From a virus: 23,220 nt of DNA. The stretch is taken from positions 1 through 23,220 of IMG/VR virus record IMGVR_UViG_3300006637_000782. One strand, written 5' to 3'. The position numbers and the translations under genes were made by a program. The notes under the pieces are model-generated. The model searched no databases and was not told the DNA's origin. It saw only the letters and a program-made list of their open reading frames with translations. Positions 1 to 23,220 of this stretch are shown one piece after another; position 1 is the first letter of the stretch, and the number at the start of each line of letters is the position of its first letter.

Positions 1-703
1 CAGACTTGAAGAAGACACCCCTTGGGTTCGTGTCTTCTGGAGTCACGGAGTAGTATGTCGAATAAGACGCCGTCGAAATATCCCACGCAGTGCTCAAGCC
101 GTATTCATTTACGCGGTTATAGACATCCTCAGACACGTACATCTTGGTGCCGTCAGACTTAAAAAATATCCCCGACGGGGCACCACCCTGCCCAACTATA
201 GAAAAGTTTTGCAGATAGGACACCGTCGAAATATCCCACGCAGTACTCAGGTCGTATTCATTAACCTCGTCGCCATTAGACCCCACGACGTACATCTTGA
301 TGCCGTCGGACCTGAAGTACAGTCCAGTGGGGGCGGACTCTTGCGTGGAGATATCCTTGTAGGTGGAGACCGTGGCTGTCGAAACATCCCACGCAGTACT
401 CAGGCCGTACTCGTACACCCTGTCAAGTTGAGATCCTACGACATACATCTTGGTGCCGTCAGACTTGAAGAATACGTCTTGGGGGAATGAATCTTGCGAC
501 ACACTGACATTCTGCACGTAAGACGCCGTCGAAATATCCCAAGCAGTACTCAGGTCGTATTCGTTTACGTCGTCTCCAAAATTACCCACGACATACATCT
601 TGGTGCCGTCTGGTTTAAAAAACAGGCCCTCGGGTTGAGTTTCTTGCGCGCCGACCCCAAAGACACCGATCGTGTTTGTTCCGACCCAGTAACGGTCTGC
701 CAT
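1..703 (-). CDS. Propeller-repeat tail protein, second paralogue (3' end missing)
   Basis: Incomplete: 234 codons are present and the frame runs off the left edge still open. I chose the ATG at 703 because CGGAGA lies at 710-715 just upstream. The protein begins MADRYWVG, a start I recall from phage tail proteins, and then carries four full and one cut copy of a repeat of about 51 residues with the pattern FFKxDGTKMYVxG, VNEYxLSTAWDISTASY. The repeat looks like a beta-propeller blade and matches the blades of the larger gene at 3907-5511. Base use is richer in G and C here than in that paralogue. It sits last in the fibre block, so I infer an exposed receptor-binding or carbohydrate-contacting role. 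The number of missing blades is unknown. Confidence 0.8.
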   Translation of the reverse strand, partial: MADRYWVGTNTIGVFGVGAQETQPEGLFFKPDGTKMYVVGNFGDDVNEYDLSTAWDISTASYVQNVSVSQDSFPQDVFFKSDGTKMYVVGSQLDRVYEYGLSTAWDVSTATVSTYKDISTQESAPTGLYFRSDGIKMYVVGSNGDEVNEYDLSTAWDISTVSYLQNFSIVGQGGAPSGIFFKSDGTKMYVSEDVYNRVNEYGLSTAWDISTASYSTYYSVTPEDTNPRGVFFKS

Positions 704-745
704 GTCAGGTCTCCGACTTAAAAACTATATCGACAGTCATGGCAG

Positions 746-1984
746 TCACGCTTGCGTTACGGTGGCAACAGCGTCCCAATAACTATCCGTGGCGTTATAT
801 ATGCAACCCACGTAAGTGACTTTCGTGGCAACCGTTGTTGTCGGAAGCGTGATGCCCATTTCGCGGAACGCACCGGATGACGTAGTCCAAGTGATCGCGC
901 GAGCAGTGCCATTATCCTCAATTCGAATCACAAGTTTTTGCCCATCAGCCGGAGTCCCGCTTGGTTGAGCAATGGTGATATCCCCCGTAAGACCCTCTAC
1001 CTTATAGACATCAGTGGTATCCCCATTTGGGGTGATACTCCCCGTGGTTGCGGATGCTGCAACGACGCGAGGATTGACGCGCTTGTTTGTCAGCGTCTGA
1101 GTGTCGCTCGTTCCAACAACAGATCCGGAGGGGGCCGTGAGAGAAGTACTCCACGCAGTGCCCGTGCTTACAGCGATTCCCGCCCCAGGGTATACTTGTG
1201 CTGCCGGTCCTGCGGCACTTGTCCAAGTAGTTCCATTAGAGGTGAGAACATTCCCATTACTGCCGGGAGCGACAACTTGAAATGCAGAAGTGCCATTGCC
1301 GAGCAGTACATTGTTCGCTGTAAAGGACGACGCACCAGTGCCCCCATCGGAGACCGTTAAATCCGTGATGCCAGTGATGGAGCCGCCGGTAATCGCGACA
1401 TTGCTCGCGGCCTGCGTAGCCATGGTGCCAAGGCCCAAGGATGTACGCGCAGTTGACCCGTTCTCCACCACCCACGTTGAGCCGTTGCCCACGATGATGT
1501 TGCCGTCTGCAACACCCAACGCACCGATCGCCGTCAGCGTTGCTGTCAGAGGCTGGAAGTTGAAAGTGCTGGTCACATCAACAACAGCGGCCCCCGCACC
1601 AGCGCCATCCGCATATACAATCACGCTGTTGCCATCCGCCACCGTGACGTTTCCACCCGACCCCTGCGTAAGGACGACGCTCTGGCCAGAGTTGTTCTTC
1701 ACGATATAAACGTGCTGCACGGTGTTGGGAGAAATGATGACGGTGTTTGTGCCGCTCGGACTACCACCAAAAACCAGGACAGAGTACTGACCGTCGGAAA
1801 GAGTCGCACTTCCGCTAACGGTAGTCGTCAGAGTGTGTGTTGTTCCAGAAAGAGCGATCGCACCGACGCCATTCGTGAGACGGTCAACAATCTCAAGGTT
1901 TACGTTCGTGGTGCCGCCCCACGTTCCGGACTGCTCGCCGGTAGCAATTAGCTCAAGGCCGACGTTGCTAAAAGTGCTTGCCAT
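746..1984 (-). CDS. Tail fibre protein
   Basis: 412 residues, ATG start with AGGA eight bases upstream. The N-terminal part (about 1-140) is a beta-rich Gly/Thr/Ser-rich domain opening MASTFSNVGLELIATGEQSG, of a type I recall at the head of phage fibre proteins, including a QHVYIVKNNSGQSVVL stretch. Residues about 145-270 contain fibre-shaft motifs such as SLGLGTMATQ, ITGGSITG and VLTSNGTTWT. The C-terminal third, from about residue 290, resembles a compact beta domain of the kind found at fibre tips. There are no charged helical segments and no signal peptide. It follows the repeat protein 2089-3459 after a gap of about 100 bases that holds a possible promoter. Role as a virion fibre is well supported by composition and motifs; the receptor is unknown. 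Confidence 0.8.
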   Translation of the reverse strand: MASTFSNVGLELIATGEQSGTWGGTTNVNLEIVDRLTNGVGAIALSGTTHTLTTTVSGSATLSDGQYSVLVFGGSPSGTNTVIISPNTVQHVYIVKNNSGQSVVLTQGSGGNVTVADGNSVIVYADGAGAGAAVVDVTSTFNFQPLTATLTAIGALGVADGNIIVGNGSTWVVENGSTARTSLGLGTMATQAASNVAITGGSITGITDLTVSDGGTGASSFTANNVLLGNGTSAFQVVAPGSNGNVLTSNGTTWTSAAGPAAQVYPGAGIAVSTGTAWSTSLTAPSGSVVGTSDTQTLTNKRVNPRVVAASATTGSITPNGDTTDVYKVEGLTGDITIAQPSGTPADGQKLVIRIEDNGTARAITWTTSSGAFREMGITLPTTTVATKVTYVGCIYNATDSYWDAVATVTQA

Positions 1985-2041
1985 TTGGGTGTCCTACGTT
2001 GCGGTTTCCGTCAAAACCCTCCCAGATGACGGGTTCTCCTC

Positions 2042-2070
2042 AATATAACTTGTTCGCGGCTTAGAGACAA
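2042..2070 (-). promoter_or_regulatory. Possible sigma70-type promoter
   Basis: On the minus strand the 104-base gap upstream of the fibre gene 746-1984 reads TTGTCT, 17 bases, TATATT. The -10 matches consensus at five of six bases, the -35 at four of six, and the spacing is ideal. This is one of only two sizeable gaps in the window (the other is 13406-13580). Seen only as a motif; activity is inferred. Confidence 0.35.
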
Positions 2071-2088
2071 CGCTCCTGTTGACCCCGC

Positions 2089-3459
2089 TTATGCCGCCGT
2101 GCACATCCAGTTGGGGCCTTGGGATGGTAGCTCCTCGGTCCACCCAGAAGATTGCACTGGGTTCTCCGGGGAATACCCAGGGTTTTGGTTCGGGGTAATT
2201 CTGCCCCACACAAGCACGGGGCCAACAACCCCTGTCGCCGCAACCCCAGTAACAGGGATGCTCGCGGTACCGGATGTCGTTACGCTGCCCACAAAACCCG
2301 CAACCGAGAGGCCGCTAACCGAAACGTCTGCTCCTGCCTCTGCGCTCGCAGACCCAACAACCCCTGTCGCCGCAACCCCAGTAACAAGAACACTGATAGT
2401 CTGCGGTATAATAACGTCGCCAACTTGACCTGCCGCAGAGAGGCCCCCAGCCACCACATCAGCAGAGGCCGTTACGGTTACCGACCCCGTCGACCCTGTC
2501 GCAGAGAGCCCCGTTTGTGGGACGTTGGCGTCGGCATTGACCGTTGTGGTGCCAACGGCGCCTGTCGCGGCGAGGCCCACAGGGGAGATGTTCGCGGTCC
2601 CAGAAGCTTGGACCTCGGAAACAGCAGCAGCCGCAGAGACCCCCGTCACGTTGACATCAACGCCCGACCCTTCGACAATCGAGACCTGGCCAACAGCGGC
2701 GGATGCAGACAACGACCCTGTTTGCACAACCTGATCTATCGAGACGACGACGCTGCCTACCAGGCCTGTCGCAGAAAGCCCCGTTTGAGGGACGTTAGCG
2801 TCACCTGTGACAGAGACAGACGAAACCGATCCTGCCGCAGACACCCCGGTAACAGCGGCGGAAACTCCGGAACCTTCTTCTACCGTCACGCCGCCGACAG
2901 AGCCGGTGGAAGACACGCCATTTGTTTGCGCCTCGGCGGATGCCGTGATGGCTACAGTCCCAACAGCGCCTGTTGCCGAAAGGCCAGTGACCGACGCGTT
3001 GGCGTCAGCTGCGACCGCTGCCAGGCCAATCTGCCCTGTTCCCCCCACACCCGTGATATCAACAACGGTGCCAAGGTCAACGGTGACACCATTCACCGCC
3101 CCTGTAGCGGACGAGCCAGTGACCGACGCATTTGCATCCGCCGAGACGGCCACAGATCCGACAGAGCCGCTGGCAGATAGGCCCGTCTGCGGGACGTTAA
3201 CATCCGCCGTGACCGTTGCCGTGCCGACAGAGCCCGTTGCCGAAAGGCCAGAGACAGACACGTTGGCGTCAGCTGCAACCGTTGCCGTTCCAACAGAGCC
3301 TGTTGCCGAAAGGCCAGTGACAGACACGTTGGCGTCAGCTGCAACCGTTGCCGTTCCAACAGAGCCTGTTGCCGAAAGGCCAGTAACGGAAACCGCCACC
3401 TCTACGCTGGCGATGTCATCCGCTAGGGCGACAGCAGCTAATGGGGCGAATCCAAGCAT
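2089..3459 (-). CDS. Tandem 22-residue-repeat structural protein
   Basis: 456 residues with ATG at 3459 and a clear GGAG ribosome binding site (CGGAGTAACACATG). After a hydrophobic start, MLGFAPLAAVALADD, nearly the whole protein is a tandem repeat of about 20-22 residues with the pattern VTGLSATGSVGTATVAADAN, giving roughly 18 to 20 copies, very rich in Ala, Gly, Val, Ser and Thr and poor in charge. The last 45 residues differ and are rich in Pro, Trp and Asn (GPVLVWGRITPNQNPGY). At DNA level the first copies are almost identical with a 66-base period. The protein probably forms an extended beta-strand stalk or solenoid in the tail. The N-terminus could be read as a weak signal peptide, but this start type is one I recall from marine phage virion proteins. 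Function beyond structure is not known. Confidence 0.75.
   Translation of the reverse strand: MLGFAPLAAVALADDIASVEVAVSVTGLSATGSVGTATVAADANVSVTGLSATGSVGTATVAADANVSVSGLSATGSVGTATVTADVNVPQTGLSASGSVGSVAVSADANASVTGSSATGAVNGVTVDLGTVVDITGVGGTGQIGLAAVAADANASVTGLSATGAVGTVAITASAEAQTNGVSSTGSVGGVTVEEGSGVSAAVTGVSAAGSVSSVSVTGDANVPQTGLSATGLVGSVVVSIDQVVQTGSLSASAAVGQVSIVEGSGVDVNVTGVSAAAAVSEVQASGTANISPVGLAATGAVGTTTVNADANVPQTGLSATGSTGSVTVTASADVVAGGLSAAGQVGDVIIPQTISVLVTGVAATGVVGSASAEAGADVSVSGLSVAGFVGSVTTSGTASIPVTGVAATGVVGPVLVWGRITPNQNPGYSPENPVQSSGWTEELPSQGPNWMCTAA
3236..3385. repeat. 66-base near-perfect tandem repeat inside the 22-residue-repeat gene
   Basis: Units start with GTTGCCGAAAGGCCA at 3236, 3302 and 3368 (plus-strand reading), exactly 66 bases apart. 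The first two units differ at only a few bases, and the third starts identically before diverging. The period equals 22 codons, so changes in copy number keep the frame. More diverged copies continue down to about 2200. Confidence 0.85.
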
Positions 3460-3462
3460 GTG

Positions 3463-3891
3463 TTACTCCGGTTTAACGGGCCACTCGACGCTATGAGGAA
3501 ACCCCTGTTGTGCTGTTATATCACGAAGTGCCTGCCTATAGGTAGCCATGTCAGGTGCCATCGCGACATCAGAAAGGGCCATCCAGTCCGTCTGGCGCAG
3601 AAGATCGTCGCGATGCGCGCGGATATTCGCCGCCGCGCGATCTGTAGCAATTTCTTGCACCGTCCAAACCTGCAACCAACCCGCATCCCCCTGCTCCACG
3701 GACTGGATGACGCGATGCGTCTTGCTGTCAAAAGCTGGTGTTGCAACCTGTTGCACGGGGTAAACGTCATATGCCGCTAGAACATCGTCGGGAACCTGCT
3801 TGGGAAAGCTGGTCTGCGGGTTATCACGGCGGAGTTGCCCAACGGTGTAAGGAAATTGGCTGGGCTGGCCGTTTGTGAGTTTGACGTACAT
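3463..3891 (-). CDS. Phage tail assembly chaperone-like protein
   Basis: 142 residues, ATG at 3891 with GGGAG five bases upstream. The C-terminal half has the signature of the Phage_tail_APC family (Pfam PF16778, recalled): an Arg/Asp helix RAHRDDLLRQTDWMAL, then YRQALRDITAQQGFP and a closing WPVKP. The N-terminal half (YVKLTNGQPSQFPYTVGQLR) is the part that in related genes varies with the fibre. Proteins of this family are encoded beside tail fibre genes and are thought to help fibre folding or attachment. Here the gene lies between a propeller protein and a repeat protein, which fits. Confident on family, less so on the partner. Confidence 0.85.
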   Translation of the reverse strand: MYVKLTNGQPSQFPYTVGQLRRDNPQTSFPKQVPDDVLAAYDVYPVQQVATPAFDSKTHRVIQSVEQGDAGWLQVWTVQEIATDRAAANIRAHRDDLLRQTDWMALSDVAMAPDMATYRQALRDITAQQGFPHSVEWPVKPE

Positions 3892-3906
3892 GTTTTTCTC
3901 CCATGT

Positions 3907-5511
3907 CTACGATAGATCAAAGCTATACACAGCCATTCCGGTTTGCGTGACAATGTACAGCTTACGTCCAGTTGGTCTAAAGAACAGCCCGAATGGGTTA
4001 GTGAACACGCTGCCGAAGGCAAAAACTTGTAGGAAGGAAGCTGTAGAGACATCCCACTCAGTGGTGAGGTCATATTCGTTCACTTCGTACCCGAATTGCC
4101 CAATAACATACATCTTGGTGCCATCTGGTTTGAAAAATATCCCTGCGTTAGCGGCATCCTGTGCGAGAGTAAAATACTGCAAAAAAGAAGCAGTGGATAC
4201 ATCCCAAGCAGTACTTAGATCGTATTCGTTCACACGGGAGTTAGTGCGACCGACAACATACATCTTCGAACCATCTGGTTTGAAGAACAGGCCTTGCGGT
4301 AAGGTATCTTGCGTTAAAACACTAAAGACTTGAACATACGAAGCCGTGGACACATCCCAAGCAGTGCTTAGGTTATATTCATTTACATCACGCCCAGAGG
4401 TTCCGAGAACATACATTTTGGTGCCGTCTGGCTTAAAAAACAGCGAGTTTGGGTTGGCCTCTTGTGCAGCAACACTAAAGGCTTGATTATAAGAAGCGGT
4501 AGAAATATCCCAAGCACTGCTTAACGCGTATTCGTTTATGTCGTCTCCGATAACGCCAGTAATGTACATCTTAGTGCCGTCAGATTTGAAGAACACATCT
4601 CTAGGTGATGTCTCTTCCGCCGACACATTCTTGTAGTTTGTTGCAGGGGCATTCCAAGCTGCGGTAGAAATATCCCAAGCAGTACTTAGGTCGTACTCAA
4701 ACACATTGGCCGTCTGACCAATAATATACATCTTGGTGCCGTCAGACTTAAAAAATACGTCCCTAAGTTGAGTCTCTTCTGTAGCAACACTAAAGTTCTG
4801 GGAATACGATGCTGTCGAAATGTCCCAAGCAGTGCTTAGATCATATTCGTTTATGTCATTGCCTGAATCTCCGGAAATGTACATCTTTGTACCATCCGAC
4901 TTAAAGTAGACCCCGGTCGGTGCGCTGTCTTGTGCAACAACACTAAAATTTTGAGAATACGATGCTGTCGAAATGTCCCAAGCAGTGCTTAGGTTGTATT
5001 CGTTTACGTCATCTCCTGAGGTGCCGACAATATACATTTTAGTCCCATCGGACTTAAAAGACAGGCCTTGCGGTGCTGTCTCTTCTGTAGCAACACTAAA
5101 GTTCTGGGAATACGATGCTGTCGAAATGTCCCAAGCAGTGCTTAGGTTATATTCATTTACGTCATCTCCGCTGGCACCAGTGACGTACATTTTGGTCCCA
5201 TCAGGTTTGAAAAACAAACCCGCTGGAATTGACTCTTGTGCAGAAACGCTGAAGGATTGATTGTACGATGCTGTCGAAATGCTCCAAGCAGTGCTTAGGT
5301 CATATTCGTACACGACACGATTTTGCGAGCCAACAACATACATCTTCAAACCATCTGGCTTGAAGAACATTGTCTGGGGGAATTTTTCTTGACTTAAAAC
5401 CGAAAACTGACCGTAGCCAGACGCATTAAAAAAAGCAGTGGAAATATCCCAACCGCCTGTTCCAGCCCCGCCAGCAGAACTTGCGGCCTGCATTAGGCGA
5501 GAAATGCTCAT
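3907..5511 (-). CDS. Ten-blade propeller-repeat tail protein
   Basis: 534 residues. I chose the ATG at 5511 (MSISRLMQAASS) because it overlaps the upstream stop as ATGA. The protein consists of ten copies of a repeat of about 51 residues: FFKPDGTKMYVxG, xxDVNEYxLSTAWDISTASYxQxFSVxxQExxPxGL. The sequence begins part way through a unit (GGWDISTAFF) and ends part way through one (GRKLYIVTQTGMAVYSFDLS), the Velcro arrangement that closes beta-propellers. Four units share near-identical DNA at 153-base spacing. No catalytic motif is seen. Placed among fibre genes, it is likely a receptor-binding or adhesive tail protein. It is a paralogue of the gene at 1-703 but uses more A and T. Confidence 0.85.
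   Translation of the reverse strand: MSISRLMQAASSAGGAGTGGWDISTAFFNASGYGQFSVLSQEKFPQTMFFKPDGLKMYVVGSQNRVVYEYDLSTAWSISTASYNQSFSVSAQESIPAGLFFKPDGTKMYVTGASGDDVNEYNLSTAWDISTASYSQNFSVATEETAPQGLSFKSDGTKMYIVGTSGDDVNEYNLSTAWDISTASYSQNFSVVAQDSAPTGVYFKSDGTKMYISGDSGNDINEYDLSTAWDISTASYSQNFSVATEETQLRDVFFKSDGTKMYIIGQTANVFEYDLSTAWDISTAAWNAPATNYKNVSAEETSPRDVFFKSDGTKMYITGVIGDDINEYALSSAWDISTASYNQAFSVAAQEANPNSLFFKPDGTKMYVLGTSGRDVNEYNLSTAWDVSTASYVQVFSVLTQDTLPQGLFFKPDGSKMYVVGRTNSRVNEYDLSTAWDVSTASFLQYFTLAQDAANAGIFFKPDGTKMYVIGQFGYEVNEYDLTTEWDVSTASFLQVFAFGSVFTNPFGLFFRPTGRKLYIVTQTGMAVYSFDLS
4808..5300. repeat. 153-base repeats coding propeller blades
   Basis: The plus-strand segment GATGCTGTCGAAATG starts at 4808, 4961, 5114 and 5267, exactly 153 bases (51 codons) apart, and the surrounding bases are nearly identical. 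Flanking blades are more diverged. This points to recent duplication or gene conversion within the propeller gene. Confidence 0.85.
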
Positions 5512-5867
5512 GCCATTGCATCCCCTGCTTGAAAACCATACCACGTTGTGCCGCCGTCCTGGGTGTAAAACGTGAATACATCTGTCTCACCGCTTGCAGG
5601 GGCATCAGGGGCAGTGCCAGACGGCCAATCGACAGCCGCAGGCCAAGTGATCGTCACCGTGGCAGATGGCGTTACCTTCAGCGTGAAGCCGTAAGCAGTG
5701 CCCGAGGCAGGCGGGCTGCTAAAGGCATAGGTTACGTTGGCCGACGGAGCATCCGAGAAGACGTTGCCGCTTGTCAGATCAAGAGTGCCAGAAGTAATGT
5801 CACCGACTGTTTCACCAGACGGCGAAGCATCAAAGAACCCCTTGGTGTAGTCGATGACAATTCCCAT
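5508..5867 (-). CDS. Small tail-associated structural protein
   Basis: 119 residues, from the ATG at 5867 (MGIVIDYTKGFFDASPSGE), which overlaps the stop of the previous gene as TAATG. An upstream Met in the same frame would run back through the previous gene and has no ribosome binding site. The protein is a single beta-rich domain with WPAAVDWPSGTAPDAPASG, then TFYTQDGGTTWYGFQAGDA. The second motif is one I recall as the end of phage fibre or tail-tip modules. Its stop overlaps the start of the propeller gene. It may be a short fibre-tip or connector component. Confidence 0.7.
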   Translation of the reverse strand: MGIVIDYTKGFFDASPSGETVGDITSGTLDLTSGNVFSDAPSANVTYAFSSPPASGTAYGFTLKVTPSATVTITWPAAVDWPSGTAPDAPASGETDVFTFYTQDGGTTWYGFQAGDAMA

Positions 5868-6166
5868 TAGACTGCAACGCTCCCGTTCATATCTTCCTGC
5901 GCCATAACCCAAGCATAGCACTTGTCGAGGAAGTTAGCGCCAGCCGCAGCTTCGACCTCAGCCAGGTCAGCGTGATAGCGACGGAAGTCCACTTCACGGG
6001 TGTCGTCACCGGGCGTGGCAGTGGCATAGCCAGAGACATCAATCATCACCGTGAACTTGGGGCCACCCTCACGCATCCGAGAGACAGCCGCAGTGACGAT
6101 GCGGAAGTAAGCGCCAGCAAAGGGAGTACCGTACTGGCTGGTGGTCAGGTCGAGAGAGATAGCCAT
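5867..6166 (-). CDS. Conserved hypothetical phage protein
   Basis: 99 residues. The start at 6166 has a very strong Shine-Dalgarno sequence (TAAAGGAGGCC) nine bases upstream; an in-frame Met farther upstream lies inside the preceding gene and is unlikely. The protein reads MAISLDLTTSQYGTPFAGAY, followed by a beta segment (KFTVMIDVSGYA) and an acidic helical C-terminal half (YHADLAEVEAAAGANFLDK). I know of no named domain. The position between fibre genes and the strong ribosome binding site suggest an abundant virion or assembly protein. Function unknown. Confidence 0.7.
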   Translation of the reverse strand: MAISLDLTTSQYGTPFAGAYFRIVTAAVSRMREGGPKFTVMIDVSGYATATPGDDTREVDFRRYHADLAEVEAAAGANFLDKCYAWVMAQEDMNGSVAV

Positions 6167-6177
6167 GTTGGCCTCCT

Positions 6178-7539
6178 TTAGTAGGTTACTTCGCTGGTAT
6201 GCACAGTGGCGACCCAGCGAATGTTTGTTGCAGCAGCCCCAGTGACTTCGATCTTCAGGCCACCATTGGTAGTATCTGCACTCAGGGCCATGCCCCATGC
6301 AGGTGTGTTGTCCAGAACAGTTGTAGCACTATTCACCAGCACTGTCGTCCCCGCCGATCCTTCCCTGCGGATCAAGCCCTCAATCTTCCATGCTGCACAC
6401 GCTGTGCCTGCCGAGGCTTGCTGACGGGCTACGATGGTGCCGTGGAAGGCGTAGGCAGAGTTGTTGGGCAGGATGATTTGGTTGGTGGCTGAAGGCGTTG
6501 TCAAGAATGTAGTCAACGTTGTTGGCGTTGCATCTGTTGTAGCGATGGTCAGAACCATGCGCCCTTCTTGAGACGACCCGTCATTACTGCCGGAAATACT
6601 TGCCCCAGACCACGCATACTTACCCGTAATGCCGTTTACATCCGTGCGAAAGCCAAGCGCAAAACTTCGCAATGCGTCTGCTTGACACCCCTGCCCAATA
6701 GCCACGGCGGCGGAGTTTGAAGCGGTTGTCCCATCCCCAATGGCGATAGACCAGTTGCCAGATGCGGTGCCATCCCCAAGCACAATTGATTCAAGGCCAG
6801 ATGAAAGACCAGCAGGGCCTATGGCGACACTATCCGTTCCCGTTGACTGACAAAGACGCCCTATTGCAATGCTGCCTGTCCCAGTGGCACCGTAGCTTGA
6901 TGTGTTCAAAAGGTTAGCTGCGGCGAAGCTGTCGGTGCCGGATGCGTAGGAGCCGCCGAGAGAAACTGCACCGCCCCCTGTTCCCGCCGAAGCACCTGCA
7001 CCCGCAGAACTAGCACCCGCCGCAAAGTTGTAACCACCGCTTGCAGTCGCACCATATCCAATAGCAACAGCACCAGAGCCGCTTGCATTTGCAGCCGCAG
7101 CGTTATTGGCGTTGTCATAAGAAAAACCACGGGGAAAGTCACTTTCTGTGACCAGCCAGTTCGTGCCGTCAGATACAATCTTCACGGTTTGACCACGCTT
7201 TACTGATAACGTAGTCGCCCCCTCAATAGTCTCTGACCCATCTGGATCAATAGTGGCAGAGCCAGTGGTTTTATTTGAACGAATGTAGGCATACCAGCCA
7301 GCGCCAAGCGTAGAAGCAGAAGTCAGGCTGGCAGTTACCGCACCAGTGCCTGTGAACTCAATAATCTTACCGAGATCACCAGACACCACAGTATAAGCGC
7401 CTGTCTTGGTGTCGATGGTCAGGGCAGATGCACCGCCGCCACCGCCAATCGCAGTGCCATTCAGCAGCAGGTCAGTGCCATCGCTCGACAGCGTAATGCC
7501 AGAGCCAGCACCCGTGTGATCTAGTTCGATCTTACCCAT
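6178..7539 (-). CDS. Tail fibre with YadA-like head repeats (paralogue 1)
   Basis: 453 residues, ATG at 7539 ([12 protein letters not shown]) overlapping the upstream stop as TGATG. Residues about 1-130 form an attachment domain (IDTKTGAYTVVSGDLGKIIE and VKRGQTVKIVSDGTNW) of a type common in phage tails. From about 145 to 320 the sequence has repeats such as AVAIGYGATASG, SIAIGRLCQSTGTDSVAIG and SIAIGDGTTASNSAAVAIG, the pattern of YadA/Hep_Hag trimeric adhesin heads. The last 120 residues ([48 protein letters not shown]) closely match the end of the neighbouring gene. I infer a trimeric fibre. It shares its C-terminus but not its N-terminus with 7539-8882. Confidence 0.85.
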   Translation of the reverse strand: MGKIELDHTGAGSGITLSSDGTDLLLNGTAIGGGGGASALTIDTKTGAYTVVSGDLGKIIEFTGTGAVTASLTSASTLGAGWYAYIRSNKTTGSATIDPDGSETIEGATTLSVKRGQTVKIVSDGTNWLVTESDFPRGFSYDNANNAAAANASGSGAVAIGYGATASGGYNFAAGASSAGAGASAGTGGGAVSLGGSYASGTDSFAAANLLNTSSYGATGTGSIAIGRLCQSTGTDSVAIGPAGLSSGLESIVLGDGTASGNWSIAIGDGTTASNSAAVAIGQGCQADALRSFALGFRTDVNGITGKYAWSGASISGSNDGSSQEGRMVLTIATTDATPTTLTTFLTTPSATNQIILPNNSAYAFHGTIVARQQASAGTACAAWKIEGLIRREGSAGTTVLVNSATTVLDNTPAWGMALSADTTNGGLKIEVTGAAATNIRWVATVHTSEVTY

Positions 7540-8882
7540 CAGTAAGTAACCTCGCTTGTGTTCACAGTGGCGACCCACCGAATGTTTGTAGCGGCTGCAC
7601 CCGTGACAGTAATGGCCAAGCCGCCGTTGGTCGTGTCAGCGGTCAATGCAATGTCCCAAGCAGACGCACCAGCCGAGGCATACAGCTTGTTCTTGATCCC
7701 GTTGCCCAGCACAGTCGATGCAGCGTTGGCGTCACGCAACAATGCCCCCTTGATCTCCCAGCTTGCGTAGTCCGATCCAGCCGAAGCCTGTTGCCGTGCG
7801 ATGATCGTGCCTGAAAAACTGTAGGCAGAGTTGTTGGGTAGGATGATTTGGTTGGTGGTGCCAGCGGTGGTGTTACTAGTTGTAAGAGCTTCTGGGGTAG
7901 CGTCTGTGGTGTCAGAGCGCAGGACGAAGGTGCCAGCTTGGGCATCGCCTTGTGCAGCAAACTTACTTGCGGCAAATGACATTTTGCCCTGAATATCTGC
8001 CAAAGAGGCTTCGCCTAGTGCAACGGTTCCCCGTGCTGACGCTGTTGTATCACGCCCCGCAGAAAACGAATAGTTACCAGAAGCCAATGAGCCAAAGCCT
8101 ATTGAATAAGCATAGCTTGTTGTAGCTTGAGCCGCCTGCCCTACGGCGCATGATCCACTGCCTGTCGCCTTAGAAAGGCTCCCCATCGCCACAGAGTTAG
8201 CACCAGTGGCACCATAGCTAGAGGTATTGCTGGCTATGGCTGCTGCGAAGGAGTTAGTGCCAGAGGCGTAAGAACCGCCGAGGGCCATCGCACCCGCGCC
8301 TGTTTCTGCTTGTGAACCACCGCCAGACGAGTTTGCGCCAATAGCCGTTGAAAAAGAAGACTTAGCGTCAGGCTGGTTTCCTATAGCTAAGCTGTTTGCG
8401 CCTGTTGCGTCAGCGTTAAAGCCTATCGCAACGCTTGAACCACCGGTAGCGTCAGATACGAAACCAATCCCAATACCGTAATTACCGGCGGCAGTTGCAC
8501 CACTGCCAATGGCTATTGCATTCGTGCCAGTAGCACTAGGTGCAGTAGGACTAGACGGGTTCTCAGCATACAACTCAAGAGCAGGTGGAATATCCTCAGC
8601 CGCAGCCGACACATAAACCACCGCCGAGCCGCTTAGGTTCAACGCAGCATCAGCATTGGAACTCTCAAGCACAGTGCGAGACAGGGTAGTGCCAGAGGCC
8701 GTGTAGGTGCCGCTGCCGATCTCCCAGTCCGTGCCATCCTCGATGACGTAGCGGACGACATCACCGTCAGCCACGCCTGCATCAGAAAAGGTCTGGTAGC
8801 CGCTTTCGGCGGAACCCAGAGTGACAGTCCCCGTTCCGGTAGTCGAGGTGCTGACTTTTGCTCTATTTACTAAAGTGACCAT
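7539..8882 (-). CDS. Tail fibre with YadA-like head repeats (paralogue 2)
   Basis: 447 residues, ATG at 8882 with GAGGTG seven bases upstream. Residues 1-98 form an N-terminal phage tail module ([39 protein letters not shown]). Residues about 120-300 hold head repeats with the spacing of trimeric autotransporter adhesins: [59 protein letters not shown]. Residues about 320-447 are the C-terminal domain shared with the gene at 6178-7539. The heads of YadA-like adhesins are trimeric left-handed beta-rolls, so this is likely a trimeric receptor-binding fibre. No translocator domain is present, as expected for a virion protein. Confidence 0.85.
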
Positions 8883-8901
8883 AGGTCAACACCTCGTTTA
8901 A

Positions 8902-9012
8902 TTATGCCGGGTCCGGGGTGCCGATCTCCCATGACGTAGTAACGTCCTCCGTCGTGTTCCGGACAGTCGGGCCGATGGCTACGCTCTTCGTCAGACGGAC
9001 AAGCGTAACCAC
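8902..9012 (-). CDS. Small 36-residue protein with GTG start
   Basis: A short ORF in the 141-base space between the structural gene ending at 9024 and the fibre starting at 8882. It begins with GTG at 9012, about nine bases after an AAAGG motif, and reads VVTLVRLTKSVAIGPTVRN, ending in TSWEIGTPDPA before TAA. It fills the gap without overlapping either neighbour, which fits the packing elsewhere. The longer ORF in another frame here overlaps neighbours on both sides and is Arg/Pro-rich, so it looks like a shadow. No domain recognised. It could be a small tail component or nothing at all. Confidence 0.5.
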   Translation of the reverse strand: MVTLVRLTKSVAIGPTVRNTTEDVTTSWEIGTPDPA

Positions 9013-9023
9013 GGCGCGTGCCT

Positions 9024-9461
9024 TTAGGCGATGCGGATGATGGCGTTCGAAGCGTCTGCCGTAGGGAACACAATCGTAAAATCGCCGGACGTCGAGGTTT
9101 TGTCCGCACCAAAGTCCAGAACAACCACGCTCGGGTCACCCGCTGCGGTGTCGTTGTAGATCAGCGCACCACGTGCCGTAATCGTCGCGGAGGTGAACGT
9201 CAGGTCAGCGAAATCCGTGAGCGCCGTAGTACCGCTCGTAGTCGGGGTGACATTGGTCAAAGTGCCACCACCCGCGGTATACGAACCAGATGCGCTCACC
9301 TCATTGGTGGCTGTGTACGCAGTCGTCGCCGCCGTAAACGACGCAGAATTGGTGTACAGAGCCAACTTAAAGTTGTCGCCCGTAGAAGCAGTAAAGTTGT
9401 GCACACCCTGCATAAGCTCTTTCTTGAAAGAGGTGCACATGAAGTTGCCGGTAAAAGCCAT
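9024..9461 (-). CDS. Virion structural protein, beta-rich
   Basis: 145 residues, ATG at 9461 with AGGAG ten bases upstream (AGGAGACTCTGACATG). It starts MAFTGNFMCTSFKKELMQGV, then HNFTASTGDNFKLALYTNSA, a type of opening I recall from conserved phage structural proteins. The rest is beta-rich and dominated by Thr, Ala and Ser (ALIYNDTAAGDPSVVVLDFG, GDFTIVFPTADASNAIIRIA). There are no membrane segments or catalytic motifs. Its position between the neck genes and the fibres suggests a tail hub, fibre-base or surface protein. Structural role is inferred from composition and context. Confidence 0.7.
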   Translation of the reverse strand: MAFTGNFMCTSFKKELMQGVHNFTASTGDNFKLALYTNSASFTAATTAYTATNEVSASGSYTAGGGTLTNVTPTTSGTTALTDFADLTFTSATITARGALIYNDTAAGDPSVVVLDFGADKTSTSGDFTIVFPTADASNAIIRIA

Positions 9462-9462
9462 G

Positions 9463-9759
9463 TCAGAGTCTCCTAATTAGCTCGGCCAGTTCAGGATGCC
9501 CTGCATCCGCTAAGGCATTATACACAGTCGTGCGGTCGCTTGCTATAGCCTCTTTAAGATGGAGGATTATCACGGTTTCTATAGCAGACTTAAACGCCGT
9601 CGCCTGATCACGTAGCGCGGGGTGGGCCGATTGTGACACCCCAACGATCTTGCTAACACACCGAGATGCGATCTCCTCCGGAGTAAACCCTCGGTTGTTC
9701 GTTGTGTGGACCTGCACCAGAGATTCATTCCTTGGCACGTCCAAGTTAACCTGAAACAT
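9463..9759 (-). CDS. Conserved hypothetical phage protein
   Basis: 98 residues, ATG at 9759 preceded by AAAGG. The N-terminal third is beta-like (MFQVNLDVPRNESLVQVHTT); the rest is helical (FTPEEIASRCVSKIVG, RDQATAFKSAIETVIILHLK, TVYNALADAGHPELAELIRR). No membrane segment is clear; the VIILHLK stretch is amphipathic. No known domain is recognised. It lies between the adaptor-like protein and a structural protein and is about the size of small tail-completion or chaperone proteins, but that is only a size argument. Confidence 0.65.
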   Translation of the reverse strand: MFQVNLDVPRNESLVQVHTTNNRGFTPEEIASRCVSKIVGVSQSAHPALRDQATAFKSAIETVIILHLKEAIASDRTTVYNALADAGHPELAELIRRL

Positions 9760-18808: not shown

Positions 18809-21289
18809 TCACCCCATCATCATCTTCTGGCGTTGGACATCAATCCGCTCGCGGTTCGTGTCGTCACGCTGCGCGGCGATATCTTCTTGGCTCTCGATCC
18901 GTGCAGCGTCGGTCGTTGCCCGCTGCTGCATCTTCTGGGTCTCCAGCTGGATCTGAGCCGCATCGCTCATGGCCTTGCGCTGCAGATCCTGCTGTCTGAT
19001 GCCCAGCTCCTGCATGCGGATCTGAACAAGCGGATCGGCCATCGGATCCTGGCCGGTAGGCATGAGCTGCGCCAGAACCTCCTGCATGATGTTGGCTTCC
19101 TGCATGGTCACCAAACGCTCAAGCTCTTCCGGCTTCTGCATCTCTTGCTGTACCTCAGCGATCTTCTGCTGCGCCATCATCGGATCAATCCCGCCCGCCT
19201 GAGCCAGGATTTGCGTCTGCTTGATCAGGGCCTCAATATCAGCCATGACCATCTGACGTGCACGTTGCGAGACGTGCTCCATGATGTGGGCATAGAACGT
19301 GCCGATGACCTGCGGCGACGTAGACACCAGAGGCGTCTTCATGAACATCAGGTGCATCTTGATGTGCAGGTCGTGATCCTGATCCGGGAAGGTCCGCAGA
19401 AGCTCGCCCATCAGAGCACGAGCATTCTCGATCGCCGGATCCATAGGCTTGGGCTCCGGAGGCGGAGGTAGGATCTCATCGATGTTCTGCACCTCCAGTG
19501 CTTGGTACATTCGACGGAACGCCGCATGCATGTTGTGGAGCTGCGGGTTGGACTGTGCCAGCTGGAGTTGCGTCTGCGCCAGAGTAACACGTTGCGCCAT
19601 TGAGAAGATATTCGGATCACTAACTGGAACAACGTCCACGCGACCGTCAAAGTCCTCGGCCTTAATCGTACGCTCTGCACCCGCTATGTCATACGGGTAT
19701 TCCGGAGGCAGGTTGTCCGCAAAGATGCGGGCCAGGATCCGGAACTCCAGTTTCTGTGCATAGTGCAGACGTTTATGGATCGCAGACATAACCTTCATGC
19801 CACGCTCCAAGAGCGCCACGGTCGTCCCAACCGGGGCCTCCTGGTTCATGTTGCTGGTCTGCTGGTCCGCCAACGAAACAAAACGACGACCACCGTCTAT
19901 CAATGCACCGAGCAGCTGACCAAGGGTCGCACTCGGTTCTTTATACGGCAGAGGCACAATAGAGTTCTTAATGTCTCCGCCAGGTGCATCAATGTCCCGC
20001 CACTCGCCCGGTTGTAAGGGCTCGTCGTCATTACGAACCCGAACTCCCCTAGCCTTAAAGCCCGCGGGGAGGTTCGCCAGAGTACCAGCGTCAATAAGTT
20101 GACGCAGGATACTCGTGGCCGCGCGGCCAAGGCCCCCAATCATGTGGATCAGGCCGAAACCATAGAAGCCCAGACCCGGCATGAACTTGTAGTGGACAAA
20201 GTATTGACGCTTCCGCGCCAAGTCCCCGCCCTCGTCAAAATTTCGACGGATCGACAGGATCTGACCGGAGCCTTCGTCAATCGTCACAATGTAGGGAAGC
20301 TGGATGCCGGTGGCGTTGCCCTCCGGATCGAGGTCCTCGAACCCCTCAAGGTCAAGGTCCACATGCATCTCAAGCAGCGTATAGTTTTCGTCGTCGTAGG
20401 TCTTCGAAAGACCCTGGATCTGGTCCACCTTTTCGCGAACCTTGTCCGAGTCTTCGTCATAACGGGTCAGTTCTACGGTACGGTAGAACCCTGCAACCTG
20501 CATCTTGCGGATGTCGTTACCATCCATCCGCAGAACATGCGTCACACGGGGCGAAGTCTGCAGGTCAGACGCCGCATACGGCACAACCAGATCCTGAGCC
20601 GGGACAAACTTGGCTACAGGGCGCTGCTTGGCCTCGTCAAAATACACCTTCTTGAAGGTCGAACCGGATAACGGGAGATAGAACAAGAGCTGGTCCATGT
20701 CCGGGTCATACTCTTCCATGACCTCGGTGATCTGGTAGTTCATGAAGTCCTTAACGCGAGCCGCTTGTTCTTCACGAGCTGCGTCCTGCAGACCCAGAAC
20801 CTGCGTCTGTACAGGGCCCCCCGCCGGGAGAAGCTCTTTATACGCTTGGGCCTGGAACTGTGTCACACTCTCCGCGATAAGCGGATGGGTCACGCCCGAT
20901 GCGCCCTCGAACGGCTGAGTGCGCTCCTCATACCGAACGCCCAGTTGGTCGAGGCCTTTGGTGTAACCGTCTTCCCACTCCTGGCGAGAAGACAGATCCT
21001 CTTCATAGGAAGCCCGCAGATCCGAAGACAGCTCGCCAAGATACCCGTCGTCCAGGTACTCCGCCAGGTTGTCGTCGTGCGCGATCAGCTGCTCTCCAGA
21101 CTCCTCCAGCTGCGCCACCAGCTCCTGGATTATCGCGCCACCCTGGCCATCATCGATGACCTCAGCTCCGCCATCGAAATTAATCGGCTCGTTCACAGGA
21201 ACGTCAACGGACGGGAGGTCCTCGGACATCCCACCTTGCATCATTCCAGCATCAGTCAAACTGCCCATGGGGCGCGGCGGCATAGCCAT
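18809..21289 (-). CDS. Portal protein, P22 type
   Basis: 826 residues, longer than P22 gp1 (725); the start overlaps the terminase stop as TAATG. Key segments: YTKGLDQLGVRYEERTQPFE, THPLIAESVTQFQAQAYKEL, then the wing and stem region with DFMNYQITEVMEEYDPDMDQ and LLFYLPLSGSTFKKVYFDEA, and further GLIHMIGGLGRAATSILRQL and PVGTTVALLERGMKVMSAIH (tunnel region). After a Pro stretch near residue 610 the C-terminal 200 residues are helix with many Gln, Met and Ala, forming the barrel seen in P22. Twelve copies form the ring at the head vertex through which DNA is pumped. The very long Gln/Met-rich end is notable. Confidence 0.92.
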   Translation of the reverse strand: MAMPPRPMGSLTDAGMMQGGMSEDLPSVDVPVNEPINFDGGAEVIDDGQGGAIIQELVAQLEESGEQLIAHDDNLAEYLDDGYLGELSSDLRASYEEDLSSRQEWEDGYTKGLDQLGVRYEERTQPFEGASGVTHPLIAESVTQFQAQAYKELLPAGGPVQTQVLGLQDAAREEQAARVKDFMNYQITEVMEEYDPDMDQLLFYLPLSGSTFKKVYFDEAKQRPVAKFVPAQDLVVPYAASDLQTSPRVTHVLRMDGNDIRKMQVAGFYRTVELTRYDEDSDKVREKVDQIQGLSKTYDDENYTLLEMHVDLDLEGFEDLDPEGNATGIQLPYIVTIDEGSGQILSIRRNFDEGGDLARKRQYFVHYKFMPGLGFYGFGLIHMIGGLGRAATSILRQLIDAGTLANLPAGFKARGVRVRNDDEPLQPGEWRDIDAPGGDIKNSIVPLPYKEPSATLGQLLGALIDGGRRFVSLADQQTSNMNQEAPVGTTVALLERGMKVMSAIHKRLHYAQKLEFRILARIFADNLPPEYPYDIAGAERTIKAEDFDGRVDVVPVSDPNIFSMAQRVTLAQTQLQLAQSNPQLHNMHAAFRRMYQALEVQNIDEILPPPPEPKPMDPAIENARALMGELLRTFPDQDHDLHIKMHLMFMKTPLVSTSPQVIGTFYAHIMEHVSQRARQMVMADIEALIKQTQILAQAGGIDPMMAQQKIAEVQQEMQKPEELERLVTMQEANIMQEVLAQLMPTGQDPMADPLVQIRMQELGIRQQDLQRKAMSDAAQIQLETQKMQQRATTDAARIESQEDIAAQRDDTNRERIDVQRQKMMMG

Positions 21290-22767
21290 TAGTAGTACTC
21301 CCGTTTACGAGGATAATACTCGTCCTCGCGCTCTTCGTTCTCCAGCGCGATAAACCCGCCCTGACGAAACCTCATTAAAGCTAACGTCATGCTATCACAA
21401 AAGTCGTCATGATCGCCATTCGGAAATGAAGCCACCTCTTCGATGACCTCATCCGAAAACTTCTTGTCACTTGGTGCCCATACTACCCCAGCCTCGAACA
21501 ACGGCGCAACCATGTGCATTCGGGTGGTTTTGTCCAACCCGCCTCCGCCTGTTCTTTTCCCCGGAGAGAAGCCAAGTGCTGGAATACCGCGAAGCCGCAA
21601 CTCGTCGATAAGCGGGCGACCTGACGCCTTTGCTTCGACCAGCACCATATCTGGCTCCCAGTATTCGTATTCTTCATACGCCACCTCCTTCAGCTCTGGA
21701 AAGTTCCATCTACCACGTTGGGCATCCAGCAAGATGATGTTATCGGCTTCCCCCTCGTCCGGCTCAAAGATCCCCCAAGTGGTGATCGCCGAATAGTCAG
21801 CCGTTTCTTTCTTTGAAAAAGCGGTGTCGTAAGCTTGTAAAATGTACTTGAGCGGTGGGATCTTCTCCTTCTCCCAAGACTTCCACCAATCTCTGCGGAC
21901 AATCGCGGACTCCGTCGATGTCGGCTGCTGCTGCCACTGCGCGCTCCACTTGCCAACAGGAAGCGAGGCTTTGATTGAAAGGAGAGCATCCTTCTCCCAG
22001 AACTCCGGCCAAAGCGGATTACCGCTAGGCAGAATAGCCGGGAACTCGATAACCTCCCACTTGTCCGCCATCGTATCGGAGGACTGGTTCGCCAGTAGAC
22101 GACCTGTCAGGTCCTTTTTTCCCCAGCGCGTCATAACGACGATAATCGCACCACCAGGCTGCAAACGCTGGCGGGGACCAGAAGTGTACCACTCATACGC
22201 ATGGTCAAACGCTGTCTCGCTCAGAGCATCTTGTTCCGAGTGAGGGTCATCGATGATGAACAGGTCTGCGCCACGGCCCGTAACTGCAGCGCCCACGCCA
22301 GCGGCAAAGTACTCGCCGCCCTTGTTGGTGCCCCACTTACCCGCGCCCTTGTTGTCTTCCTTCAAAACCGTGTTTGGAAAGATCTCTTTGTACGCAGGGT
22401 CGTCGATCAGATCTCGAACCTTGCGGCCAAAGCGCACCGCCAGTTCCGTGTTGTGCGTAGCCTGAATAATCTTGAGCTTCGGGTTTCGTCCCAAGAACCA
22501 GGCAGGCATCAAGAAAGACGCAAACTCGGACTTAGAATGACGAGGCGGCATGTTGATGATCAGGCGTTTGATCTCCCCACGCGCTACCGCTTCAAGCTTT
22601 CCTGCAATCACACGGTGGTGAGCGCCCTCAATGAAGTTCTCATACACATGATGGGCAAACGCCATAAACTTGTTCTGGGCCTTCTCTCGAAGGTCCAGCT
22701 TCCGTTTAGCCTCGGTAAGCGCCAAAATCTCTTTCAGCGCCTCTTCCGGCAGTCCGTGCAAATTCAT
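21289..22767 (-). CDS. terL: Terminase large subunit
   Basis: 492 residues; ATG at 22767 overlaps the stop of the repeat gene as ATGA. ATPase domain: Walker A at 73-81 (MPPRHSKSE), Walker B at 169-175 (LFIIDDP), coupling motif VVMTRW at 210-215. RNase H-like nuclease: Asp314 (QAYDTAFSK), Glu378 (LVEAKASGRPLIDEL), Asp452/454/455 (NGDHDDFCDSM). The protein pumps DNA into the procapsid through the portal and cuts the concatemer. Length is normal for this family. The usual small terminase gene is not visible in the window; the upstream ORF has a different character. Confidence 0.95.
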   Translation of the reverse strand: MNLHGLPEEALKEILALTEAKRKLDLREKAQNKFMAFAHHVYENFIEGAHHRVIAGKLEAVARGEIKRLIINMPPRHSKSEFASFLMPAWFLGRNPKLKIIQATHNTELAVRFGRKVRDLIDDPAYKEIFPNTVLKEDNKGAGKWGTNKGGEYFAAGVGAAVTGRGADLFIIDDPHSEQDALSETAFDHAYEWYTSGPRQRLQPGGAIIVVMTRWGKKDLTGRLLANQSSDTMADKWEVIEFPAILPSGNPLWPEFWEKDALLSIKASLPVGKWSAQWQQQPTSTESAIVRRDWWKSWEKEKIPPLKYILQAYDTAFSKKETADYSAITTWGIFEPDEGEADNIILLDAQRGRWNFPELKEVAYEEYEYWEPDMVLVEAKASGRPLIDELRLRGIPALGFSPGKRTGGGGLDKTTRMHMVAPLFEAGVVWAPSDKKFSDEVIEEVASFPNGDHDDFCDSMTLALMRFRQGGFIALENEEREDEYYPRKREYY

Positions 22768-23220
22768 CTAGGACGTACCCCAGGTCGATACGGTGTGTAC
22801 CCCGGCGCAGGGAGCGCACGAGATGGATCTTCGCCATACAGAGAAGGTCCCGGCCCAGTCTGTAGATAAGGCGCAATCTTCGGACGCATAGCCTCGATCG
22901 GCTGACATGTCACGCCGCCACCAGGAACAGGGACTTTCTGGTAACCAGGGGGGCATTCGAAGTCGACCGTCGGTAGGATGTCCCCGGTGGTTTCTCCGCC
23001 TTCGTAGATAGGGCCGTCGCCAGTATCTCCACCGCCAGTATCTCCACCGCCAGTATCTCCACCGCCAGTCTCTCCACCGCCAAGCTCTCCACCGCCAGTA
23101 TCTCCACCGCCAGTATCTACGCCGCCAGTATCTCCACCGCCAGTATCTACGCCGCCAGTCTCTCCACCGCCAAGCTCTACGCCGCCAGTCTCTCCACCGC
23201 CAAGCTCTACGCCGCCAGTC
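22764..23220 (-). CDS. Pentapeptide-repeat protein upstream of terminase (5' end missing)
   Basis: The frame is open from the right edge to TGA at 22764, which overlaps the terminase start; no start codon is visible, so the N-terminus lies outside. The first 60 residues are twelve units of (T/L)GG(G/V)(D/E). Then come TGDGPIYEGGETTGDILPTV and a two-Cys segment FECPPGYQKVPVPGGGVTCQ, and a Pro-rich tail ending GYTPYRPGVRPR. The frame is chosen because it stays open throughout and meets the terminase start exactly; a competing ORF at 22910-23107 on the same strand stops short. The repeat may form a flexible acidic spacer. It does not look like a small terminase. Function unknown. Confidence 0.7.
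   Translation of the reverse strand, partial: TGGVELGGGETGGVELGGGETGGVDTGGGDTGGVDTGGGDTGGGELGGGETGGGDTGGGDTGGGDTGDGPIYEGGETTGDILPTVDFECPPGYQKVPVPGGGVTCQPIEAMRPKIAPYLQTGPGPSLYGEDPSRALPAPGYTPYRPGVRPR
23040..23219. repeat. 15-base tandem repeat with 30- and 60-base higher order
   Basis: Twelve 15-base units (plus-strand form TCTCCACCGCCAGTA and variants). On the minus strand they code TGGVE LGGGE twice, TGGVD TGGGD twice, then TGGGE LGGGE and TGGGD TGGGD. Variants group in pairs and in blocks, so expansion has occurred by whole 30- and 60-base blocks. The array continues past the right edge. Confidence 0.92.

Follow-up and report, generated by a model that had tools for sequence, protein, structure and literature searches.

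The 15-base repeat array at the right-hand end of the window, a linear virus fragment of 23,220 bases, most likely encodes a linker on a virion-associated protein that would hold a disulfide hairpin and be used at cell entry. We give roughly even chances to the full form of this proposal, in which the array forms the C-terminal linker within a giant (about 430-1,575 amino acids), modular, mostly low-complexity protein encoded in an accessory gene slot directly upstream of the terminase large subunit gene (terL) and acts as an entry tether with a conserved disulfide hairpin. The giant-protein setting is observed in relatives of this phage; the contig protein, whose beginning lies beyond the contig end, would have a similar length.

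The array belongs to the minus strand, where it is read in the same frame as an ORF (22764 to 23219) that is open to the contig edge, lacks its 5' end and encodes 151 amino acids on the contig. Its first 65 residues are formed by 13 intact units encoding (T/L)GG(G/V)(D/E) (23025 to 23219), followed by a decayed 14th unit, TGDGP (23010 to 23024); an earlier sequence-only reading had recognised the array but counted 12 units. From 5' to 3', the order is TGGVE-LGGGE twice, TGGVD-TGGGD twice, TGGGE-LGGGE once and TGGGD three times. Tandem Repeats Finder scored the array at 265 for period 15 and at 292 for period 60, while the best score after dinucleotide shuffling of the array region was 54 (300 shuffles). 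Compared with itself, the array matches best at offsets of 30 (91.5%) and 90 bases (90.5%), against 84% at an offset of 15. As units two apart are more alike than neighbours, the array has grown at least partly by duplication of 30-base pairs of units, in line with the 30-base block duplication that had been proposed. The array reaches the end of the contig, its copy number is therefore a lower bound, and the number of copies seen may reflect assembly truncation; the contig likely broke at this place because such a repeat is difficult to resolve with short reads. Two further tandem repeats are present in the contig, at 4772 to 5309 (period 153) and 3212 to 3384 (period 66), inside ORFs 3907 to 5544 and 2089 to 3459, which are possibly fibre-type genes.

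A second minus-strand frame, P0002, is likewise open across the array, because the 15-base unit is free of stop codons. We took ORF 22764 to 23219 as the coding frame since its product, P0001, has a homologue: it is 65% identical (E 3e-28) to the last 71 residues of the protein encoded upstream of terL in the related locus L009, an open frame of 1,584 codons, with residues 86 to 147 of P0001 aligning with the end of that protein. This homologue upholds the frame chosen in the earlier reading, whose description of the array as coding, acidic and Gly-rich is also supported. The array is followed on the minus strand by the rest of the acidic linker, IYEGGETTGDILPTVDFE (22956 to 23009), a hairpin with two cysteines, CPPGYQKVPVPGGGVTC (22905 to 22955), and a C-terminal tail, QPIEAMRPKIAPYLQTG...GYTPYRPGVRPR (22767 to 22904), which has a net charge of +3 and carries an RPxxxPY motif. 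In a structural model of the protein end, the cysteine segment is predicted to form a two-stranded beta hairpin (pLDDT about 80), with little other structure. The stop codon of the ORF overlaps the start codon of terL (ATGA), the downstream gene on the minus strand (21289 to 22767; phrog_38, E 1.8e-106). Stop/start overlaps at terL recur in several relatives, which suggests translational coupling.

At least 600 stretches in IMG/VR encode relatives of this terminase, and our survey covered 80 loci in which the terminase is at least 83% identical, 5 of which had too little upstream sequence, leaving 75 readable loci. In 46 of these, the ORF that immediately precedes terL has the pattern CPxG(Y/F)...C close to its end, and L004 has the same hairpin ending once it is read in the correct frame, giving 47 of 75. 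The ending with two cysteines, which had been regarded as unusual, is thus a common feature of this slot. At 19 loci, a GNAT-like ORF (assigned from sequence without a profile search) precedes terL instead, and several of these have a lytic-transglycosylase-like ORF, also assigned by sequence, just before it; the assignment was confirmed for L045, where the best match is phrog_342, "internal virion protein with endolysin domain" (E 1.7e-23). In L045 (3375 to 7553), a 984-amino-acid protein, the lytic transglycosylase and a small Gly-rich protein precede the GNAT-like ORF and terL. The other nine loci have different endings, most of them without cysteines yet with a YYQPQ-type tail. Complete hairpin-bearing slot proteins range from about 340 to about 1,575 amino acids and are mostly of low complexity, and slot proteins have short modules in common, of roughly 50-82% identity, in differing settings within otherwise unlike chains. 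The contig ORF shares the features by which we recognise the family, namely a position directly upstream of terL with overlapping or abutting ends, a low-complexity acidic linker, a CPxG(Y/F)...C hairpin and an RPxxxPY tail. A related phage genome of 61,206 bases, assigned to a Gammaproteobacteria MAG by binning (NYWC01000010.1), carries a terminase region at each end of its contig (L098 and L099), the two being almost the same, and a slot without a large gene; the slot gene is therefore dispensable in that phage. P0001 had no relative in a search of viral contigs; an alignment query returned L009, L004 and three weaker loci only, none with the same repeat units. We found neither a Pfam or PHROGs model for the slot protein family nor a description of it in the published literature that we searched.

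The linker varies strongly between phages while its acidity is largely retained. In the relatives, the 100-residue stretch preceding the hairpin carries a net charge of -26 at the median, and it is the most acidic 100-residue window in 17 of 21 proteins of at least 500 amino acids; on the contig, 88 residues are present before the hairpin, and their net charge is -19. The linker of L009, the nearest relative, is Gly/Ala-rich and barely acidic. The repeat unit itself differs, being TGG(G/V)(D/E) on the contig, GA in L009, EKEV in L058 and L062, DDTT in L060, DG in L080 and poly-Asp in L015 to L018. Alignments of 16 related pairs contain dozens of in-frame gaps 70 to 400 residues from the C-terminus, whereas the last 70 residues are 80-100% identical and show only two single-residue gaps. 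Because linkers change in frame while the ends stay fixed, we regard the array as one version of a hypervariable tether. The predicted in-frame length change between phages thus applies to the equivalent linker but not to these exact units, which we found in no relative. An apparent difference in copy number between L062 and L076 was dropped, as L076 starts inside the array. At the fixed end, an alignment of 14 protein ends gives the invariant residues C, P, G, C, R and P; the two cysteines are 12 to 17 residues apart in 31 distinct hairpins, and the tail that follows usually contains RPxxxPY and is usually basic in the relatives. The hairpin cysteines are the only ones in 10 of 11 full-length proteins checked, L009 having a third at residue 5, and they presumably form a disulfide. 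A search of the PDB with the hairpin profile gave the PBCV-1 minor capsid protein P7 (6ncl, residues 169-191, 22 residues, E 0.02), a match too weak to be used; this likeness is probably due to chance or convergence.

Domain scans of 36 slot proteins gave an FtsK gamma domain, a LysM domain, coiled-coil type matches and almost nothing else. The FtsK gamma domain (PF09397, E 1e-15, above the cut-off) occupies residues 1005-1061 of the 1,293-amino-acid protein of L052 (ORF 516-4394), the only such case among the 36, and is suggestive of DNA reading. The LysM domain (E 1.8e-10) lies at residues 92-137 of the 1,274-amino-acid protein of L024 (ORF 2861-6682), which keeps the YYQPQ tail and is devoid of the Cys hairpin. 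The L009 protein (ORF 1784-6535) contains many near-identical coiled-coil repeats between residues of about 600 and 1390 and an EF-hand/dockerin-like stretch; hydrophobic segments are present in several other slot proteins, but not in this one. None of the 36 proteins matched an ejection protein by sequence or profile, the only match to a known ejection protein being the separate transglycosylase ORF of L045, and none contained an enzyme or LPD domain of polyvalent proteins at Pfam significance. With tblastn, the L009 and L025 proteins had no full-length relative among 50,697 phage records and matched only through coiled coils or a 37-residue module; a 44-residue module of L009 had no relative among cultured phages. 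The central domain of L052 was modelled poorly (mean pLDDT 45.7), and the best fold likenesses of this prediction, to a large polyvalent protein (E 0.026) and to a virion-type RNA polymerase fragment (E 0.35), fell below significance; a fold search against the PDB returned nothing.

Downstream of the slot, the minus strand encodes in succession the terminase large subunit, a portal, an amidase, a GroES-like protein, the major head protein and tail-type genes. By terminase, the nearest cultured relatives are 023Pt_psg01 (61%), HTVC027P (58%) and DSL-LC04 (58%), phages of seawater and lake with genomes of 57-62 kb, and each of them has an annotated small terminase at a distance of 3-5 kb from the large one. 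In G003, an uncultured 48-kb relative with the large terminase at 4283-5746 and the giant gene at 5743-9510, a small-terminase homologue (phrog_51; L086, 13254-13856) is encoded 3.7 kb upstream of the giant gene. Since the small terminase sits elsewhere in relatives, the slot upstream of terL is not the small-terminase slot as had been assumed, and the homologue sought elsewhere was indeed found in them. We also rejected the idea that the array protein is itself a small terminase, as P0001 showed no similarity to one.

We propose that the slot protein is expressed alongside the late genes, travels in or on the virion and has its action at the cell envelope as the phage enters. The disulfide of the hairpin would close outside the cytoplasm, and the linker would be a flexible spacer under weak constraint in exact sequence and length, leaving slippage and recombination free to alter it. 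In the relatives, linkers lengthen, shorten or swap their repeat unit by in-frame duplication and deletion, with hairpin and tail being kept. We infer the virion and envelope role from the isolated cysteine pair, the LysM and lytic transglycosylase functions in the slot, the hydrophobic segments of several members and the weak fold likeness to polyvalent and virion RNA polymerase proteins. Counting against an entry role, we found no virion proteomics and no cultured phage with a slot protein. Further points against it are the insignificant fold match based on a poor model, the coiled coils that L009, the nearest relative, has in place of a hydrophobic domain, its barely acidic linker, and the slot without a large gene in the 61-kb phage. 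One might further speculate, as a rather improbable extension, that members of this giant and nearly Cys-free family enter the periplasm, where the pair oxidises and the hairpin anchors, the hypervariable acidic tether setting a reach that slippage can retune.

Alternatively, the Gly-rich acidic array could be the surface tether of an external fibre or adhesin whose small disulfide head touches the host, comparable to the glycine linkers of pIII in filamentous phages. The disulfide-type hairpin close to the very C-terminus would suit such a protein, the long coiled-coil repeats of L009 could make a rod, and Vibrio phage records of 7-12 kb, probably from filamentous phages, contain hypothetical proteins with stretches similar to the array DNA. 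However, this last likeness is one of composition only, and the contig has other candidate fibre genes, e.g. ORF 3907-5544. Moreover, hairpin and tail are the best-kept parts among close relatives, whereas receptor-binding tips usually diversify, and we therefore consider a fibre unlikely, while granting it some weight. A neutral origin, in which the array is a product of slippage with no particular function and its exact copy number an assembly truncation at the contig end, fits the ending of the contig within the array and the quite different low-complexity units that relatives have at the same place. Yet the reading frame is preserved, and the linker stays acidic ahead of the hairpin despite the differing units, which neutral slippage alone does not predict; we hold this explanation to be improbable.

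The coupling to terL raises a further alternative, an accessory protein for packaging or DNA handling that works with the motor or the DNA and in which the acidic tether is a DNA mimic or a spacer. The ATGA overlap on the contig and in several relatives, the DNA-reading FtsK gamma domain of L052 and the juxtaposition of the acidic linker with a tail that is usually basic are all in keeping with it. Set against these points, the FtsK gamma domain is confined to that one protein, relatives have a separate small terminase, and the slot gene is missing in a relative with a 73% identical terminase, so that we find a packaging role very doubtful.

Our preferred reading, a virion-associated entry protein, invites comparison with the ejection (internal virion) proteins of short-tailed phages, gp14-gp16 of T7 and gp7, gp16 and gp20 of P22, which, according to the part of the review PMC8954989 that we read, are likewise long, late and conserved in a mosaic manner; T7 gp16, equipped with a transglycosylase domain, passes through the periplasm into the inner membrane. 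The slot of some relatives similarly contains a lytic transglycosylase or LysM domain, and some members have hydrophobic segments. In contrast to the T7 and P22 proteins, the slot family is dominated by low complexity, has no sequence match to them and is encoded next to terL, and its acidic hypervariable linker and ending with two cysteines are not described for ejection proteins in that part of the source. For the polyvalent proteins of phages, packaging in the capsid is assumed, and peptidoglycan-cleaving domains are frequent among them (PMC5512222). The slot proteins resemble them in being very long and built of many modules with assorted small domains (LysM, FtsK gamma, EF-hand-like), and the predicted central domain of L052 may bear a weak likeness to one; the lack of significant enzyme or LPD domains sets them apart. 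We assign the slot family to neither group.

In the pIII protein of filamentous phages, Gly-rich linkers consist of short repeated units. The contig array is similar in its short Gly-rich repeats, while phage type and gene differ, and the match to the Vibrio phage records covers the array alone (17% of the query). The array itself is an ordinary low-complexity linker; the interest lies in what it points to, an unclassified family of giant proteins, common in uncultured phages, and an accessory slot beside the terminase. If these are entry proteins, they would provide an example of phages that vary a tether while the end piece stays fixed, and a function for an accessory slot flanked by the small and large terminase genes. 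The Roseobacter phage CRP-345 encodes gp62 (L085, 8836-12576), a hypothetical protein of 1,246 amino acids, downstream of the portal gene. It has a long poly-Gly stretch followed by CCFIMLEARYG in place of a CPxGY hairpin, and it has a 37-residue module in common with L025 (73% identity) that is also present in L080. Like the slot proteins, gp62 is a giant low-complexity protein encoded in the packaging region.
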